Positions 8,965-42,013 of a DNA stretch of 48,454 nt are shown piece after piece (the stretch's first letter is position 1; every line of letters begins with the position of its first letter). Both the position numbers and the translations under genes were made by a program. Where the stretch lies: NCBI GenBank assembly GCA_026991135.1, contig JALXCD010000114.1, positions 1 through 48,454 of the forward strand, read 5' to 3'. This DNA comes from Deltaproteobacteria bacterium. Lineage in GTDB: Bacteria; Desulfobacterota; Dissulfuribacteria; Dissulfuribacterales; QOAL01. A model generated the notes under the pieces. The model was not told the DNA's origin and made no database searches. It saw nothing but the letters and a program-made list of their open reading frames with translations.

Positions 8965-11160
8965 TTATATTCTACTCAAATTTGTATAATCAAGCCTTAA
9001 AGTCTTTTCCCCTGCCATATCAAAAAGTACTTTCACCCTTACTTTATCAAGGACATCAATAATAGTCCCCTTTCCGAATATGGAATGTCTCACTCTTTCC
9101 CCTTTCTTAAAACCTGTTCCTTTTGTATCAGATGTTCCACGTGAAATCTTTTCTCTAGAAGATTGGAGTCCCTCTTCTCTTATATTATTTGCTCTTTTTT
9201 CAATCCTTTCCCCCTTAACATCTTTATATTTTACAATTTTTACATACTTTTCAGGTATCTCTTCAAGAAACCGGCTAGGTTTGGCAGGCATAAGCCCTGC
9301 GCCCTGGATATTTATGAAGGCAGGACAACAGAAAAATAGCTTGTCTTTTGCTCGTGTTGCTGCCACATAAAAGAGCCTTCTTTCCTCTTCGATCTCTTCT
9401 GGATTGTTTATGGCGAGAGGGGAAGGGAAACGGCCCTCACAAAGGCTGATCATAAATACTACCTTCCATTCAAGACCTTTTGCAGAATGGATGGTTGAAA
9501 GGATGAGTTCACCATGTTCTTTTTGGCTTGGATCACCCTCTGGCGGATCAAGGGCAAGGTCTGACAGAAACTCAACAGAATCTCTATAGTTATGGCTGAT
9601 TGCCTTAAGCTGTTCTAGTTCCTGTAGCCTTTTGGGATAATCGTCGTAATAGTGGCTTTCAAGATAGGGCCTGTACCATTTTATTAGCTCATCAAGTACT
9701 CCCTTTAAATCGATTTCCCTTTGGGTAAGTTCTTGAAGCAGTTTTCCCAGGGTCCTTACCTCTTCAACCCAGGCAGCCTTGCCTTCAAATTCAGATAGGG
9801 CAAGAAGTGGATCCTTTTCTTCAACAAGTCTTGAAAAAATCCTTTCTACACTTTTAGGGCCTAGTTTATTAATTAAAAGAAGTATTCTTTGAAGGCTCAA
9901 TCTGTCCAGTGGATTGATCATTATCCTTAAAAGAGAGATGATGTCCTTAATATGAGCAGCATCAACAAGCCTCATGCCGCCCCTTTTTATAAAACCAATT
10001 CCAGCCCTGTTTAAATAGGCCTCAAGTTGAAAGGAGTGAAAGGCGGCTCTAAAAAGGACTGCAATTTCTTCAGGCTCTATGCCTTTATCAATAAGTCGCC
10101 TTATGGTTTCTGTTACAAACCTTGCCTGCTCTTCTTCATCCATTGTCAGTAAAAGCGTTGGCTCTTCTCCTCCCTTTCTGTGTGCTTTAAGGTGTTTTGT
10201 GAATTTCTGTCTTGCATTTGCGATTATGGCATTTGTGCAGTCAAGATTGGGCTGGGTAGTCCGGTAGTTTTTTTCAAGCTTTATTATCCTTGTTCCAGGA
10301 AAAATGCGCGGGAAATCCAATATGTTTTGAAAATTTGCCCCCCTAAAAGAATAGATTGACTGGGAATCATCCCCTACCGCCATGACATTTTGATGGTTAA
10401 CGGCCATTAATCGCACTATTTCCGACTGGCTAAGGTTTGTATCCTGGTATTCATCAACCATTATGTATCTGAATTTTTCACTGACACTTAGTCTGATTTC
10501 TTCAAAATCCCTTAAGATTTTTAACCAGTTAAGCAAAAGGTCGTCATAGTCCATTAAGGCGTGAGCCTTTTTATAATCCTTATAGGCTTCAAAAAGCTTG
10601 CCTATACCTTCAAGGTGTTCCAGAAAGTGGGGGTAGCTAGTCTGGATGATCTCATCCACCATGGCTCCAGAATTAGCAGCCTTACTGAAAATTGAGCAAA
10701 GGGCTGCCTTTGTGGGGAATTTTTTGCCCTTTCCACTAAACTCCATCTGTTTGGAAAGAAGGTGGATGAGATCCTGGCTGTCTGACTGATCCATTATGGT
10801 GAAGCCGGGAGGGTAACCTAAAAGGTGTGCATAGCGTCTGAGCATCCTGTGGCTGAATCCGTGAAAGGTGCCACCCTGAACCCTCTGGCACTTGTCGCCC
10901 CCTAAAAGAGCCGCCCTGTTAAGCATCATAGCAGCAGCTTTCCTGGTAAATGTAAGTAGAAGTATATTTTCTGGAGGAATTCCATCCAGAATGAGCCTTG
11001 CTACGCGATAAACCAAGGTTCTTGTCTTTCCACTACCAGCTCCTGCAATAACTAAAAGCGGGCCATCCTGATGCATTACCGCCTCAAGCTGGGCAGTGTT
11101 TAGTTCCTGTCTGAAGGATATATGTTCAAGAGTTCTTTCTTTTTTTTGAAAAAGTTCCAT
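8965..11160 (-). CDS. UvrD/PcrA-type superfamily 1 DNA helicase
   Basis: The 731-residue product carries the SF1A helicase motifs in order: motif I AGAGSGKTRT near residue 41, motif II VDEYQDTN near 235, motif III GDDSQSIYSFRGA near 262, LEKNYRTTQ near 296 and the late motifs TIHSAKGLEWKVVF and LFYVAATRAKD near 555-605. These proteins unwind DNA 3'-to-5' in repair and replication restart. Its last 50 residues (KGERVRHSIFGKGTI) form the Tudor-like domain by which PcrA/UvrD binds RNA polymerase. It stands alone on the minus strand, divergent from fbp. Confidence 0.94.
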   Translation of the reverse strand: MELFQKKERTLEHISFRQELNTAQLEAVMHQDGPLLVIAGAGSGKTRTLVYRVARLILDGIPPENILLLTFTRKAAAMMLNRAALLGGDKCQRVQGGTFHGFSHRMLRRYAHLLGYPPGFTIMDQSDSQDLIHLLSKQMEFSGKGKKFPTKAALCSIFSKAANSGAMVDEIIQTSYPHFLEHLEGIGKLFEAYKDYKKAHALMDYDDLLLNWLKILRDFEEIRLSVSEKFRYIMVDEYQDTNLSQSEIVRLMAVNHQNVMAVGDDSQSIYSFRGANFQNILDFPRIFPGTRIIKLEKNYRTTQPNLDCTNAIIANARQKFTKHLKAHRKGGEEPTLLLTMDEEEQARFVTETIRRLIDKGIEPEEIAVLFRAAFHSFQLEAYLNRAGIGFIKRGGMRLVDAAHIKDIISLLRIMINPLDRLSLQRILLLINKLGPKSVERIFSRLVEEKDPLLALSEFEGKAAWVEEVRTLGKLLQELTQREIDLKGVLDELIKWYRPYLESHYYDDYPKRLQELEQLKAISHNYRDSVEFLSDLALDPPEGDPSQKEHGELILSTIHSAKGLEWKVVFMISLCEGRFPSPLAINNPEEIEEERRLFYVAATRAKDKLFFCCPAFINIQGAGLMPAKPSRFLEEIPEKYVKIVKYKDVKGERIEKRANNIREEGLQSSREKISRGTSDTKGTGFKKGERVRHSIFGKGTIIDVLDKVRVKVLFDMAGEKTLRLDYTNLSRI

Positions 11161-35756: not shown

Positions 35757-36553
35757 AAATCGATACCCTTTCCCTTTTAAATGGTGACCTTGTCCTAAAC
35801 AAGGATTTTAAATCCATCCTTTTTGAAAACAATCTTAAAAAACCAGAGGCCTTCTGGACCATTGAGGATGAGCCTGTAAAAAAGGTCTTAAAGGAAAGGG
35901 GAACAGGAAGGTTTTATTTAAAGGGAGAATCTGGAAAAGGCATTGAGTGCTACATAAAAAGATATACCCCAATACCTTTTAAAAAAAAGATAAAGGATTT
36001 CTTAAACCTCAAGTTCAGGGTCTTTGATGCCTTTAATGAGTGGAGGGCCCTTTTGGCCTTTCATGAAAATCTTCTTCCAACCCTTATTCCAGTTGCTGCT
36101 GGAAGGCATTTAAAGGGAACATTCTGCGTAACCTTGGGATTAAGGAATTATCAAAGGGCCTCTGACCTTCTTAAGGAAGATAGTGGACTTGACAGAGATA
36201 AAAGGCGGATTCTTATCTCAAATATAGCCATTTATGCTGCTAACATGCATAATAAGGGGTTTGCCCACCAAGACCTTTATCTAGTTCATTTTTTCATAAA
36301 GGAAGATTTAACACCCTATTTAATTGACCTTCAAAGGGTAATAATCCAAAAGGATTTAAGAAGAAGGTGGGCAATTAAAGATCTGGCAGAGCTTCTTTTT
36401 TCAGCAAGACTTGTAATGTCAGATGAGGAAACAGAGTTTTTGATAGATGAATATTCCAAGGAAATTGGCTTTGACATTAGAAAAGATAAAAGGCTTTTTA
36501 GGGAAATTGAAAAAAGGGCCAATAGAATAATGGCAAGATATAAAAACGCTTAG
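35753..36553 (+). CDS. LPS core/Kdo kinase-like protein (WaaP/KdkA family)
   Basis: The 266-residue product fits the Kdo/WaaP family of eukaryote-like sugar kinases that phosphorylate the LPS inner core on the inner face of the membrane. The ATP-lysine region is ECYIKRY near 65-70, the catalytic loop is GFAHQDLYLVHFFI near 170 (His-x-Asp) and the metal-binding Asp is in YLIDLQR near 192. It is translationally coupled with the formyltransferase-like gene. Its stop codon overlaps the stop of the convergent HEAT-repeat gene by 3 nt. Confidence 0.82.
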   Translation: MKIDTLSLLNGDLVLNKDFKSILFENNLKKPEAFWTIEDEPVKKVLKERGTGRFYLKGESGKGIECYIKRYTPIPFKKKIKDFLNLKFRVFDAFNEWRALLAFHENLLPTLIPVAAGRHLKGTFCVTLGLRNYQRASDLLKEDSGLDRDKRRILISNIAIYAANMHNKGFAHQDLYLVHFFIKEDLTPYLIDLQRVIIQKDLRRRWAIKDLAELLFSARLVMSDEETEFLIDEYSKEIGFDIRKDKRLFREIEKRANRIMARYKNA

Positions 36554-37251
36554 CAGCCTAAAAGGTCAAGGGCAATTTTAGAGGCCTCAGAAACGCTTAT
36601 CTTTTTAACCTCATCTTCTATAAAAAGCTCAACTTCCCTTTTATCAGAAAGCCCTTTTTGTATCTTCTGGCAAAAGGTTTTATCTCCTGAATACCCTATG
36701 GCCAAAGTGGCAAGGACCTTTGATGTAGGATCATTATCATCAAGATATGTGCTTACAATTTTATTGGCATTAATCTCATTGTAAATTTCTTTCTGGGACT
36801 TTGACAGTCTATAAAGCCCCCAAAGAGCCCCTCTTCTAAGGGGAAGATATTCAAGAAAATTCCCCTCCTCCCACACATAGGAAAGAAGTATCCTTGCATA
36901 TTCTCTTGAAAGGCCCTTGTGGTTAGCCATTGCCTCAGCCATTGCTTCAGGCGCACCCCAGCCAATGCCGCCCGATTCGTCATTTAGACTCCACATGAGT
37001 CTTCTCATGACAATTCTTGCTTCTTCCATGTCCTTTTCCGCAAGTCTTGCCATTACTCTGCCAAAGGCCCTAATGGCCAGCCATCTTTCAAGGGCATCCG
37101 GCCTATAAAAAAAACGGATGAGGGGAGAGATAAGGGCCTTGGGAGGGGATGAATCAATAAAGTTTATAATGGCAGGAAGGTCTCCCTTTTTTAAAAGCTT
37201 CTGGAGCCTCCTGCCAATATTCTTTCTGTCCCTAAAGGAAAGGTTAGACAT
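36550..37251 (-). CDS. HEAT-repeat protein (DVU0298 family)
   Basis: The 233-residue soluble protein is almost entirely helical, with repeated units such as ALERWLAIRAFGRVMARLAE, YLPLRRGALWGLYRLSK and PTSKVLATLAIGYSG, as in HEAT-repeat proteins. The segment SLNDESGGIGWGAPEAMAEAMANH is characteristic of the DVU0298 family described from Desulfovibrio. Function unknown. It begins 13 nt after the stop of the desulforedoxin-like gene, so it is the last gene of the oxidative-stress run. It ends overlapping the convergent kinase gene. Confidence 0.8.
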   Translation of the reverse strand: MSNLSFRDRKNIGRRLQKLLKKGDLPAIINFIDSSPPKALISPLIRFFYRPDALERWLAIRAFGRVMARLAEKDMEEARIVMRRLMWSLNDESGGIGWGAPEAMAEAMANHKGLSREYARILLSYVWEEGNFLEYLPLRRGALWGLYRLSKSQKEIYNEINANKIVSTYLDDNDPTSKVLATLAIGYSGDKTFCQKIQKGLSDKREVELFIEDEVKKISVSEASKIALDLLGC

Positions 37252-37264
37252 TTAAAATTAATTT

Positions 37265-37591
37265 TTATTCAAGGGGTTCCATTTCCTTTCCACAGCAAAG
37301 AGGGATAGGCTCTCCTGCCTTACAGTTTTTGTACTTATTGCATATGGCACAAAAATAGGTGCAGTCTTCTTCTACCTTTTTGTCAGAATACTGAGTCTTT
37401 CCTCCTGGAACGCCTTCTATATAAAACCTTGCCACCTTATCATGTCCAGGGACAAAGTTCCCCATGGGGACTATCTTCTTATTTTCCCCATAACAGTCAA
37501 TTACAACCTTCCACAGAACCTCAAGAGAAGATTCTTCCTGGGGATTTTCAGGCATAAATTCTATTACATTTTTGTCCACTAAGATTTTCAT
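37265..37591 (-). CDS. Small protein with a C-terminal desulforedoxin-like cysteine site
   Basis: I do not recognise the 108-residue protein as a whole. Its N-terminal 75 residues are mixed, with VPMGNFVPGHDKVARFY. The last 35 residues read YFCAICNKYKNC, then PLCCGKEMEPLE: C-x2-C-x14-C-C followed by G-x-x-M. This closely copies the FeS4 site of desulforedoxin and desulfoferrodoxin centre I (C-x2-C-x15-C-C-G in the protein at 39796). A mononuclear iron site is therefore likely, by inference. It starts 29 nt after the flavodiiron gene's stop and may be an extra redox partner of that oxygen reductase. Confidence 0.75.
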   Translation of the reverse strand: MKILVDKNVIEFMPENPQEESSLEVLWKVVIDCYGENKKIVPMGNFVPGHDKVARFYIEGVPGGKTQYSDKKVEEDCTYFCAICNKYKNCKAGEPIPLCCGKEMEPLE

Positions 37592-37620: not shown

Positions 37621-38817
37621 TTAGGAAAGGGCCTCTATGATCTTTTGGCCCATTAATATTCCGGCCTCTCTGCACCTTTTTAGGTCATCATGGGTTGGTA
37701 CGTATTTCACTTTAATGCCTTCATGGATCAGCTCAAACTTCCAGTCTTCCATTGCCTTATTTAGGTGCTTTACTGACTCTCCACTCCAGCCATAGGAGCC
37801 AAAGGCAAAACCAAACTTGTTGGCAGGCCTAAGCCCCCTAAGATACATGATGAAGCCGGCCATTCTGGGTAAAAGCCCATTATTTAGAGTGGGGCTTCCA
37901 AGACATATTCCTTTGGCATCAATGACATCTGTGACGATCTCGCTTCTGTGATTTACACTTAGATCAAGAAGCTTTACGCTAACCCCTGTGGATTCAATGC
38001 CATCGGCAACGGCTTTTGCCATCATTTCGGTGCTGTGCCACATGGTATCATAAATAACCAGGGCCTTTTTGCTGCCTCTATGATGGGACCAGTCTTCATA
38101 GGCCTTTATGATCTTTCCAGGGTCCTTTCTCCAGATGACTCCATGATCCGGTGCAATCATGTCTATTTCGATGCCAGAGTCGGCCACACTTTTTAAAAGC
38201 TTTCGTACCTGCGGTGAATATAGATAGAGGATATTTGCATAGTACTTTTTGGCCTGATACATGAGCTCGGATTGATCTACCTCGTCATCATAGCGCTCGC
38301 TTGTTCCAAGGTGCTGTCCAAAGGCATCGCTTGATATCAGGAGCTTTTCTTCAGGGATATAGGAAAACATGCTGTCTGGCCAGTGCAGCATCCTTGTTTC
38401 AATAAAGGTGATGCTCCTTTTGCCAACAGAGATGGTTTCTCCGTTTTCCACCACGTGATAGGGCCAATCCTCCCTGTGAAAGTGGGAAAGAAGGTTTTTG
38501 TGTCCCATTTTTGAGCAGATAATCTTTTCAGGCTTAACCAGATCAACGATTTCGGGAAGGCATCCACTGTGGTCCATCTCAACGTGGTTTACCACGATGT
38601 AGTCGATTTTTTCAGGATCAGTTAAGGTCCTGATCCTGTGGACTAGGTCTGAACAAAGGTTCTTTTTGGCAGTATCAAAAAGAACAGTCTTTTCATCAAA
38701 CATGAGGTAGGCATTGTAGGTAGTGCCTCTATAGGTAGAATAGCCGTGAAAGTCTCTTACAAGCCAGTCAACGGCCCCCACCCAGTAAATGTCCTTTTTT
38801 ATCTCATAGACTTGCAT
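37621..38817 (-). CDS. Flavodiiron protein (rubredoxin:oxygen oxidoreductase)
   Basis: FprA/ROO enzymes reduce O2 to water (or NO) using electrons from rubredoxin. The 398-residue product has the beta-lactamase-like diiron domain with the ligand motif HVEMDHSG near residue 80 (H-x-E-x-D-H), His in RMLHWPDSMF near 148 and Asp/His in SSDAFGQH near 168. A flavodoxin domain (about 250-395) follows, with FMN-binding YDTMWHSTEMMA. There is no C-terminal rubredoxin domain; two separate rubredoxin genes lie just upstream. The ATG at 38817 has GGAGG upstream; a longer TTG start is part of that Shine-Dalgarno. Confidence 0.95.
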   Translation of the reverse strand: MQVYEIKKDIYWVGAVDWLVRDFHGYSTYRGTTYNAYLMFDEKTVLFDTAKKNLCSDLVHRIRTLTDPEKIDYIVVNHVEMDHSGCLPEIVDLVKPEKIICSKMGHKNLLSHFHREDWPYHVVENGETISVGKRSITFIETRMLHWPDSMFSYIPEEKLLISSDAFGQHLGTSERYDDEVDQSELMYQAKKYYANILYLYSPQVRKLLKSVADSGIEIDMIAPDHGVIWRKDPGKIIKAYEDWSHHRGSKKALVIYDTMWHSTEMMAKAVADGIESTGVSVKLLDLSVNHRSEIVTDVIDAKGICLGSPTLNNGLLPRMAGFIMYLRGLRPANKFGFAFGSYGWSGESVKHLNKAMEDWKFELIHEGIKVKYVPTHDDLKRCREAGILMGQKIIEALS

Positions 38818-38835
38818 TTTAATTTCCTCCAACTC

Positions 38836-38997
38836 CTAATCTACTGGTTCAAATTGGTCCTTGCTTGCCCCGCAGATGGGACAGCTCCAATCATCTGGAA
38901 GGTCTTCAAAGGCGGTTCCTGGTTTGATTCCAGAGTCAGGATCGCCATTTACAGGGTCATAAATGTAGCCACATATCTGGCATCGATACTGTTTCAT
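38836..38997 (-). CDS. Rubredoxin (53 aa)
   Basis: This short electron carrier reads [20 protein letters not shown], then [15 protein letters not shown] and CPICGASK. The two Cys pairs (CQIC and CPIC) bind one iron. At 53 residues it is a textbook rubredoxin. It starts 19 nt after the other rubredoxin's stop and ends 18 nt before the flavodiiron start, making it the likely electron donor of that enzyme. Confidence 0.96.
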
Positions 38998-39016: not shown

Positions 39017-39238
39017 TCAAGCTTTAGATTGAATATGGCCTTCCTTAACAGAACCTTCTCCAGCCAATGGTTTGAACATTGCTTTGGTGGCGCCGCAGAT
39101 GGGACAGCGCCAGTCATCCGGTAGTTCTTCAAAGGGGGTTCCTGGCGGGATTTTTCCCTTCCTGTCCCCCTTGTCGGGATTATAGATGTATCCGCAATTG
39201 ACTGTTTGACATTGATACATTTGTTCTGCTGTTGCCAT
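39017..39238 (-). CDS. Rubredoxin-type protein with N-terminal extension (73 aa)
   Basis: The 73-residue product carries a rubredoxin domain with the iron-binding pairs in [11 protein letters not shown] and [11 protein letters not shown]. The first pair is spaced C-x4-C (CQTVNC) rather than C-x2-C, as in the minority of rubredoxins with an inserted pair of residues (Rd-2 type of Desulfovibrio). The ATG at 39238 follows AAAAGGAGA; a longer in-frame reading upstream lies within the ferritin gene. With the normal rubredoxin next to it, this gives two carriers of probably different redox potential. Confidence 0.93.
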
Positions 39239-39269
39239 GACTTCTCCTTTTTCCGTATAAGGGGTTGTT

Positions 39270-39794
39270 TTATTCCTTAGCTGGCATGGGAACAGGAAGC
39301 GGCCTTTGGCCAAGTTCTCTATCCACCATGAAGAGTCCGCCGCCTTTTCCATCTGAGCCTCCTGCAAGCTTAAGCTTCTGGACTACAGCACTGGCAGAGG
39401 CCTCTTCCTCAACCTGTTCGCTTACAAACCACTGGAGGAAAATCTGGGTAGCATGGTCCTTTTCCTCTATGGCGAGGTTCATAAGATCATTAATGAGGCT
39501 TGTAACATACTTTTCGTGCTCGTATGCGTGTTCAAAGACTGCAAGGGCAGAATCCCATTCCTGGGGCGGAGTCTTAATGGATTCGAGAAGGACCCTTCCA
39601 CCACGCTCTATGACAAAGTCATAGATTTTCATGGCATGAATCATCTCTTCCTGGGTTTGAGCCTTCATCCAGTTTGCACAGCCTTCAAGGTCAACACTTT
39701 CAAAGTATGATGCCATTGAAAGATAAAGATAAGCTGAATAAAGTTCTGCATTTATCTGCTTGTTGAGTGCCTTTTCCATTCTTTCACTAAGCAT
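39270..39794 (-). CDS. ftnA: Ferritin
   Basis: The 174-residue product is a non-haem ferritin, storing iron as ferric mineral after oxidising Fe(II) at a diiron centre. The ferroxidase residues are visible: Glu in [11 protein letters not shown] near 17, Glu and His in [14 protein letters not shown] near 50 and Glu in [12 protein letters not shown] near 94, plus [22 protein letters not shown] near 120. ATG 39794 follows AGGAG; longer in-frame starts overlap desulfoferrodoxin. It begins 1 nt after the desulfoferrodoxin stop, so iron storage is tightly linked with superoxide removal. Confidence 0.95.
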
Positions 39795-39795
39795 T

Positions 39796-40170
39796 TTAAC
39801 TCCTCCACAGTCCATGAAGATTGCAATATGCACGGGCTGTAACATCTGTTGCATTTGTGCAAAAGGTAGCTTCAGGCTCTTGCCCTGGGCTCAAAAATAC
39901 CCTTTGGGCAACGTCTCCTGCAATTAGCTCAATCCACTCGATATAGTGCTTTTCTTCCATTGGATGGGCAACGCTTCCAACCTTTACCTTGTAACCGCCA
40001 TCAACCTTTTCGATGACAGGCACATGTTTTTCCTTGGCGGCATCCACGGTATTTTCCTCCATGAGGACCATTGGCTTTCCGCAGCAAACCAGCTGCCCCT
40101 TTCCCTCATGGACCATTTCAACCATGTTTCCGCAGATTTCACATTTATAGACTTCTAATTTCTTGGTCAT
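39796..40170 (-). CDS. dfx: Desulfoferrodoxin (two-iron superoxide reductase)
   Basis: The enzyme reduces superoxide to H2O2 without making O2. The 124-residue product has centre I ligands Cys10, Cys13, Cys29 and Cys30 (KCEICG, VCCGKPM) and the centre II catalytic site: His49 in EKHVP, the His pair in [12 protein letters not shown], and Cys/His in YCNLHGLW near the C-terminus. It has no signal peptide, so it acts in the cytoplasm; rubredoxin is the expected donor. It lies between the exported superoxide reductase and ferritin. Confidence 0.96.
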
Positions 40171-40197: not shown

Positions 40198-40650
40198 TTA
40201 GATTACCTTTACTGTTACAGGCTCACCTATCCATGCGCCATGGAGGTTACATTCAGCTATAGCCTCAAGGCGGCATGTCTTGTTGAGCCTTATTCTGAAG
40301 TATCCATTTGGAGAGGTGTTCCCGCCAGCCTCATTTTCTAGTTCAATGGTTTCATGGCCATCCAAAAGTAGCTTTATTTCATTAATAAAGTGTTCAGGGG
40401 TGGAGGGATGTTCCACCATGAAACCAACCTTTACTTCTATGTTAAACCATTCCCCCTTTTTCACCTGGGAGGGCGCCTTAATGAGGGGAACATGCTTTTT
40501 CTCAAGCATGGAAGGTTTTTTCCTGTTGGTGAGGCGACTTAATTTCTTTTGCCCTTTGTGGCCCTTTGCCCAGGATTTTTCAACCTTGCCAGCAACAAGG
40601 GCTGCTGCCGCTGTGACTACTGCGCCTTTTACAAATTTTCTTCTTTCCAT
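40198..40650 (-). CDS. Tat-exported one-iron superoxide reductase-like protein
   Basis: The 150-residue product starts with a twin-arginine signal (MERRKFVKGAVVTAAAALVAG). It then carries the neelaredoxin-type His4-Cys iron site: KKHVPLI, EHPSTPEHFINEI and ECNLHGAW. There is no CC-type centre I. ATG 40650 with a GGGGGAT upstream is preferred over an ATG four codons earlier, because the twin-Arg is then at the very start. Its position between a secreted cytochrome and the cytoplasmic desulfoferrodoxin suggests a periplasmic superoxide reductase. Because the match to the SOR active site is from motifs only, activity is not proved. Confidence 0.82.
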   Translation of the reverse strand: MERRKFVKGAVVTAAAALVAGKVEKSWAKGHKGQKKLSRLTNRKKPSMLEKKHVPLIKAPSQVKKGEWFNIEVKVGFMVEHPSTPEHFINEIKLLLDGHETIELENEAGGNTSPNGYFRIRLNKTCRLEAIAECNLHGAWIGEPVTVKVI

Positions 40651-40675
40651 GATATCCCCCATATTTTGGGTTTTT

Positions 40676-42013
40676 TTATTTTACTTCAATGACCATCTTG
40701 GCAGTATTGACAAGAATTGGTCTATATTCAGACTCTGGCAGCTTAAAGAACTTGCCCACAGAACTTGGAACCTGGGCATAAAAGAGGTTGGCGTTTATGG
40801 TAAGTTTCCCCTTAGGCAAGTTAGAGGGTAGCTCCCAGACGTAGTTTTCAATCTTTGTCTCCCTTGGTCCAATCCTATAATCAACAACGGTATTATCCTT
40901 TGTGTACCACTGGCATATGGTCATCCTGCCCTTTGGATCAAAAAATGGCTTTCTGAATATCCTTGCGCCATCAGGGACATCTCCATCCCTTTTAAGGCCC
41001 TTAAAGCCCTTTATTTCCTTTATTTCTCCAATTGCCTGGTATGCATAGGTCTTTGAATTGGCAATGGTATAATCTTCGCCTTTAAAGCCCTTTGACTTTA
41101 CTGGGATATGATAACTCTTTCCATTTGCGTCAATGGCCCAGACCTCAAGCCACAGCATCCTCTCTTCACTTGAGCCAGATGGTATATAATGTCCTGCCTT
41201 ACCGTTAAAAAGCACCACCCTGAGCTTAAGGTTATTGCCTGTTGAAAGAGCCTTTTTATTGGCATAAAGGGCAAGATCAATAGCGCCTTTTAATTTTGAG
41301 TCTGAATGGGACCCTTGAAATACATGATGGGCAATATCAGGGCGGTTTTTGCCCATTGAGGTGGACTTTCCTGGAGCTTTGTGCATATGGCAATCCTGGC
41401 AGACAACCCCTTCCTTGGCATAAGGCCCATTTTTCCATTCACGATAGGTGGCTTTAACCCAGGCGCCATATGGACTTTGCTCATCATGGCAGGTAGCGCA
41501 AAATTCAGCACTCTTGTGGAAATTGCTAAAACGGCTCTTATGGAAGGGAGACTTTGCGTCTTTTCTTGGTCCATTTTTGGTCTTTCCTGGGGTAATTTCC
41601 CAGCTAAAGTTAAAGGGCTCTTTCTGGTTTGTGCCTGTAATATTATGACATATCTCACATGATACCCCTTCATTTGCCCTTGTGTTTTTGTCGGCAGGCT
41701 TTGGCGGAATATCTCCTGACAAAAATGCCAATGGACCATGACATGCGATACAGCCAGCCTTTACACCTGAAACCTTTTCCAGTTTTTGGGCATGGGGTAG
41801 AGCAAGCTCAAAATATTCCACCTGATCCCATGAATGGGTATAGCTTTTTGACATCATGCTGTCATTCCATTCCTGAAATATTTTCTTGTGACAGGCACCA
41901 CATTTTTGGGGGCTGCTAAAGTCATCGTATTTATACTGGCCCATTTTTGCACCTATACAAAGACCTGGTAATAACAGGGCAGCCATTAAAAAGACCACTA
42001 TCCTTTTAATCAT
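40676..42013 (-). CDS. Secreted pentahaem cytochrome c (cytochrome c554-like)
   Basis: The 445-residue product has a Sec signal peptide (residues 1-21) and five CxxCH haem motifs in its first 210 residues: CGACH, CIACH, CEICH, CATCH and CQDCH. The remaining 230 residues are free of haem and look like a beta-rich domain (NNLKLRVVLFNGKAGHYIPSG). The haem part resembles cytochrome c554-type multihaem proteins. It is periplasmic. It ends 25 nt before the Tat superoxide reductase start, so it may donate electrons to that protein or to outside acceptors; this is inference. Confidence 0.88.
   Translation of the reverse strand: MIKRIVVFLMAALLLPGLCIGAKMGQYKYDDFSSPQKCGACHKKIFQEWNDSMMSKSYTHSWDQVEYFELALPHAQKLEKVSGVKAGCIACHGPLAFLSGDIPPKPADKNTRANEGVSCEICHNITGTNQKEPFNFSWEITPGKTKNGPRKDAKSPFHKSRFSNFHKSAEFCATCHDEQSPYGAWVKATYREWKNGPYAKEGVVCQDCHMHKAPGKSTSMGKNRPDIAHHVFQGSHSDSKLKGAIDLALYANKKALSTGNNLKLRVVLFNGKAGHYIPSGSSEERMLWLEVWAIDANGKSYHIPVKSKGFKGEDYTIANSKTYAYQAIGEIKEIKGFKGLKRDGDVPDGARIFRKPFFDPKGRMTICQWYTKDNTVVDYRIGPRETKIENYVWELPSNLPKGKLTINANLFYAQVPSSVGKFFKLPESEYRPILVNTAKMVIEVK

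Follow-up and report, generated by a model that had tools for sequence, protein, structure and literature searches.

A conserved 108-residue protein with a predicted desulforedoxin-like module, encoded behind a flavodiiron protein gene in Dissulfuribacterales

Flavodiiron proteins (FDPs) of class A need an outside electron donor. The FDP encoded in the window, by which we mean the whole stretch of 48,454 nucleotides analysed here, consists only of a diiron and a flavodoxin domain, and it therefore needs such a donor as well. Directly behind its gene lies an open reading frame for a small protein of 108 amino acids with a cysteine motif near its C-terminus. The locus thus raises the question of what this protein is, and whether it has a part in supplying electrons for the reduction of O2.

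The 108-residue protein and its operon

The gene (37265-37591, minus strand) is part of a run of genes on the same strand. The run comprises, in order, a multihaem cytochrome (40676-42013), a second superoxide-reductase-like protein (PF01880) with a Tat-like signal (40198-40662), desulfoferrodoxin (Dfx, a 2Fe superoxide reductase; 39796-40170), ferritin (39270-39854), rubredoxin 2 (39017-39367 for the open reading frame as listed, with a CX4C-type rubredoxin domain in the C-terminal half), rubredoxin 1 (38836-38997), the FDP (37621-38832), the 108-residue protein, and a DVU0298-family (HEAT-like) protein (36550-37251). The two superoxide reductase-type proteins were assigned by Pfam and NCBIfam searches, and ferritin and the FDP (ODP diiron domain plus flavodoxin, without a fused rubredoxin) by domain search. 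As the initial annotation had it, the gene directly follows the FDP gene, from which it is separated by 29 nucleotides; the DVU0298-family gene begins 13 nucleotides further downstream. The operon already contains two rubredoxins and Dfx, which fits the proposal of a third FeS4-type candidate at this locus. A search of the window's genome gave a total of three rubredoxin matches, of which two belong to the FDP operon, so adjacency to rubredoxin should be rare by chance. A promoter and terminator scan gave no signal beyond that of shuffled sequences and is uninformative on the operon ends.

The 108-residue protein has an ATG start codon preceded, 12 nucleotides upstream, by a purine-rich AAGGAG in the sequence. 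No signal sequence is apparent by eye, and the protein is presumably cytoplasmic for this reason. Neither Pfam nor NCBIfam contains a model that matches it; the sole NCBIfam line, YabA, was rejected as noise, since at E 0.008 it scored 16.7 bits where the cut-off is 130. The single protein, searched against PDB sequences, had one match at chance level (E 1.4); a plasmid collection gave none, and our literature search found no paper on the family. The roo and PerR operons of delta-proteobacteria have been described (PMC545781), and the 108-residue protein is not among what the accessible part of that account covers.

Desulforedoxin-like C-terminal module and N-terminal domain

The reading frame was aligned with 37 full-length relatives (34-81% identity to the window protein). 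The resulting 38-row alignment leaves out near-duplicates, whether of one genome or of closely related species, contig-end fragments (L048, L050-L053, L074) and matches to the C-terminal module only (L054, L075-L078). All 38 members keep the four cysteines and the methionine of the motif C81-x2-C84-x14-C99-C100-G-x2-M104, which reads CAIC-x14-CC-G-K-E-M in the window protein and had been picked out in the initial annotation. They also keep a fifth cysteine, Cys33, in the N-terminal part, which that annotation had missed. The remaining invariant columns are M1, P97 and, in the N-terminal domain, Pro14, Glu19, Trp27, Pro42, Gly44, Pro48, Ala54, Phe56 and Glu59. Two further cysteines of the motif region, C77 and C90, are poorly kept (17/38 and 6/38). 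Judged from this alignment, conservation of the motif is far beyond chance. The dN values of the window gene against two relatives are 0.11-0.13, with dS not estimable.

The motif had been likened to centre I of the Dfx encoded in the same operon, and this Dfx does carry the C-x2-C-x15-CC pattern, at C10, C13, C29 and C30. CX2CX15CC is also the pattern given for Dfx centre I and desulforedoxin in the portion of SORGOdb available to us (PMC3116461). Desulforedoxin, Dfx centre I (PF06397/TIGR00319) and the C-terminal module of our family (residues 73-108; 37268-37375) share the order Y-x-C-x2-C ... CC-G-x2-M. The module differs in its spacing, which is x14 in 35 members and x13 in the other three, not x15. 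It also differs in its position at the C-terminus, the known modules being stand-alone or N-terminal.

The likeness extends beyond the motif. An hhalign comparison of the family with a profile built from 21 desulfoferrodoxins of the same locus set gave a probability of 93.0 (E 3.4e-7) over columns 77-108, corresponding to residues 76-107 or the C-terminal 32 residues. With the 38-column desulforedoxin (Dx) domain of Dfx alone, the probability was 95.2 and the score 40.8. None of 200 controls, in which the cysteine columns were fixed and the others permuted, reached this score (mean 12.7, maximum 25.0); the likeness to Dx therefore exceeds that due to cysteines alone. By comparison, a rubredoxin profile gave a probability of only 24.7. 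A profile search of PDB sequences at E<=10 listed seven matches, five of them desulforedoxin or Dfx; desulforedoxin came first, with a best E of only 0.19. Applied to 80 genomes from a different phylum, the family profile gave six matches, one of them a genuine Dfx centre I (E 0.007).

The initial annotation had named a predicted fold unlike desulforedoxin as grounds for dropping the assignment; the prediction, once run, favours desulforedoxin. An AlphaFold2 model of the protein has a mean pLDDT of 79.4 and a pTM of 0.48, with block means of 92, 77, 90 and 85 for residues 71-108. Residues 73-107 superimpose on Desulfovibrio gigas desulforedoxin (1dxg) over 35 of 36 residues at 1.9 Å, with a Z of 4.4 that is modest, as befits a 36-residue chain. 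Foldseek returned no significant match for the whole model (none at E<=0.001), and 1dxg was absent among the 50 matches it listed.

The family models themselves capture the module poorly. The window protein has no match to PF06397 or TIGR00319 up to E 10; PF06397 finds 11/38 members at E<=1 (best E 0.0005) and TIGR00319 finds 2/38 (best E 0.27), and neither the window protein nor any other member reaches the curated cut-offs. We found no match to superoxide reductase centre II (PF01880) or to rubredoxin (PF00301, CxxCG...CPxCG) in the protein. If the x15 spacing and the curated cut-offs are applied strictly, the protein falls outside the desulforedoxin family as far as sequence can tell, and it is best called desulforedoxin-like: it has the profile homology beyond the cysteines and, in the model, the desulforedoxin fold. 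We regard it as very probable that the C-terminal module is, as predicted, a Cys4 metal module of desulforedoxin type.

The same module occurs in stand-alone small proteins of another phylum, with a similar tail after it. One is encoded at L107:1513-1704 (64 residues from an internal ATG; PF06397 E 0.0045) and one at L054:4986-5186 (67 residues; E 0.00015), both under the cut-off. The module is therefore mobile.

Small Cys4 modules tied to FDP chemistry also include the short-spaced rubredoxin modules of rubrerythrin and of class D and F FDPs, which, in the part of the source at hand (PMC6033852), have CysxxCys pairs 12 residues apart and are fused to the enzyme; our protein has an adjacent CC pair and is separate. 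Desulforedoxin-like centres as fused modules are known from the oxidative-stress protein desulforubrerythrin of Campylobacter jejuni, where, according to the excerpt available (PMC7482061), the centre is joined to rubrerythrin, a catalytic domain of which we found no counterpart in the 108-residue protein. The HTH-Dx-SOR and Dx-SOR proteins listed in the accessible SORGOdb text (PMC3116461) likewise join a Dx module to other domains; we found neither centre II (PF01880) nor an HTH in our protein.

The N-terminal domain (residues 1-66; 37394-37591) carries the invariant residues listed above, Cys33 among them. The claim that the module is fused to an unrelated N-terminal part is borne out in that neither Pfam nor NCBIfam has a model matching the front ~70 residues, for which no clear fold match emerged either. 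Modelled alone, residues 1-66 form a beta-beta-alpha-beta(-beta) arrangement of weak confidence (pLDDT 72), for which Foldseek gave no significant match (none at E<=0.001). VIA-align paired this domain with kinase N-lobes, guanylate cyclase and designed proteins; these rows were discarded, as their Z values of at most 5.6 lie in the range that the tool treats as unspecific. A role in docking or dimerisation would be a guess. The layout of a new N-terminal domain followed by a desulforedoxin tail is one that escapes the family libraries searched.

Distribution and gene neighbourhood of the family

In whole-genome searches, strong relatives (E<=1e-10) were found in 27 of 60 near genomes, the window's own included: 9/9 of the genus, 18/19 of the family (genus included), 9/27 of the rest of the order and 0/14 of other members of the phylum. 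In a further four of these 60 genomes the matches are only weak. An even sample of the phylum gave matches at E<=0.01 in 32 of 297 genomes, of which 25 are full-length, one covers the N-terminal part (G254) and six lie toward the C-terminal part only. A scan of named genome contigs yielded 34 loci, mostly from Deltaproteobacteria and Desulfobulbaceae MAGs, with one from an Aminicenantes MAG.

Within the window's order, all 25 loci have the FDP gene immediately upstream, with 15-207 bp separating the matched segments, and the DVU0298 gene on the downstream side. Such FDP adjacency is general only in this order. Outside it, a rubredoxin gene adjoins on the same strand, at 7-146 bp, in 13 of 28 testable loci (upstream in 11, downstream in two), and in another locus (L039) a superoxide reductase with a Tat signal takes the place of rubredoxin. 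In L094 a pair of rubredoxin and 108-residue-type genes diverges from a Dfx-FDP-DVU0298 cluster. The remaining 14 of the 28 loci had no rubredoxin, FDP or SOR neighbour that we could find with the window's own proteins as queries (E<=1e-4), a search that remote neighbours could escape. The 28 are what is left of 32 loci outside the order when L040, L044, L048 and L051, with less than 40 bp upstream, are set aside; L102, a duplicate of L030, and G031, a fragment at a contig start, are also uncounted.

Mapped onto the protein tree, adjacency to rubredoxin requires eight changes, at least five of them forced by well-supported branches, so the arrangement has been gained or lost repeatedly. Shuffled labels reach as low a number in 59 of 500 trials; the arrangement is therefore scattered rather than clustered. 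In one large branch (L060-L067) the relative's gene lies among unrelated genes.

Six genomes of the same order, picked for an FDP match (G019, G022, G023, G029, G036, G041), keep the rubredoxin-FDP pair without the gene, and no copy was found there. At the level of whole genomes, co-occurrence with the FDP domain family was uninformative (28/28 genomes with the gene have it, as do 38/40 without). As FDP operons exist without the gene and FDP presence does not track it, the protein is an accessory and not a required FDP donor. The DVU0298 gene follows the FDP gene in five of the six genomes that lack the 108-residue gene and in 25/25 loci that have it; its product is another uncharacterised FDP companion in the window's order.

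Possible roles and further neighbours

The best reading, to which we give about even odds, is that the protein serves the rubredoxin/FDP system as an accessory FeS4 carrier of electrons or as an adaptor. In this scheme the C-terminal ~35 residues would form a desulforedoxin-type knuckle pair binding one metal through four cysteines, and the ~70-residue beta-beta-alpha-beta domain would presumably serve docking or dimerisation. Electrons would be exchanged with the rubredoxin pool one at a time and would pass onward to the FDP, which reduces O2 to water, or in some lineages to superoxide reductase. The metal in the predicted site is most likely iron, an assignment we favour with some reserve. 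That the protein is a redox partner of the rubredoxin/FDP system is a proposition with balanced chances. What the analysis establishes is the family, the invariant cysteines, the Dx similarity and the repeated linkage; electron transfer and the partners are inferred, and a role in O2 reduction is plausible in view of that linkage. Potentials near 0 mV, and one at +240 mV, appear for desulforedoxin-like centres in the part of the literature available (PMC7482061), and such values would be appropriate for passing electrons to enzymes that reduce O2. If the protein does carry electrons, the supply line of the FDP is broader than rubredoxin alone, and the protein may be an extra carrier that helps anaerobes to cope with oxygen. 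The oxygen-defence kit of sulfur-cycling anaerobes in any case gains an unnamed conserved family with a predicted metal site. A more elaborate version would make this protein a third type of electron donor devoted to flavodiiron and superoxide reductases. In it the FeS4 site would handle single electrons and work together with Cys33 of the new N-terminal domain, a reactive thiol that would either control the flow of electrons or reduce an oxidant on its own. We find this version doubtful.

Cys4 knuckles are ready zinc binders. The main rival to the electron carrier is a structural zinc knuckle, in a non-redox adaptor or an assembly or stability factor that works through its N-terminal domain. 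It is the main rival because Asn85 replaces, in nearly all members, the Gly that follows the first CxxC in Dx and rubredoxin (CxxCN versus CxxCG), and because the loop is shorter. The strong conservation of the N-terminal domain, Cys33 included, and the 14 of 28 loci outside the order without a redox neighbour are in keeping with it. The adjacent CC-G-x2-M, however, is the desulforedoxin pattern, the similarity goes beyond the cysteines, and genes for rubredoxin, FDP and SOR recur next to the relatives. We consider a zinc site possible but on the whole unlikely.

A redox or iron sensor or regulator of the oxygen-defence operon, in which the FeS4 site, Cys33 or both would report the state of O2, peroxide or iron to a partner, is a good deal less probable. 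It would account for an invariant cysteine outside the metal site (38/38), for the accessory distribution, and for co-location with defence genes here yet with unrelated genes in other lineages; against it, Pfam and NCBIfam searches found no DNA-binding or known signalling domain in the protein, and comparisons of the N-terminal fold gave no clear match. The distorted geometry of CC-type sites could allow iron to be released. Together with an operon shared with ferritin, FDP and SOR, this might suggest that the protein donates iron to the mono- or diiron sites of these proteins or helps to mature them, but the recurrent neighbour outside the order is rubredoxin and not a diiron enzyme, and we think this very unlikely.

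Several other genes lie near the relatives. Small proteins with the sequence EKLRxLxxHWIEHN are encoded at L041:3556-4073, L043:4651-4902 and L090:8566-8975; those of L041 and L043 have a His-rich end, and those of L041 and L090 adjoin a short protein starting MCQ, which we take to resemble CooT. Directly downstream of the relative in L084, positions 9127-9696 encode a single-cluster ferredoxin (PF13370) and a 115-residue protein without a Pfam match. The Tat-type superoxide-reductase-like protein lies beside Dfx in the window (40198-40662, minus strand), and a Tat-type superoxide reductase also lies beside the relative in L039.
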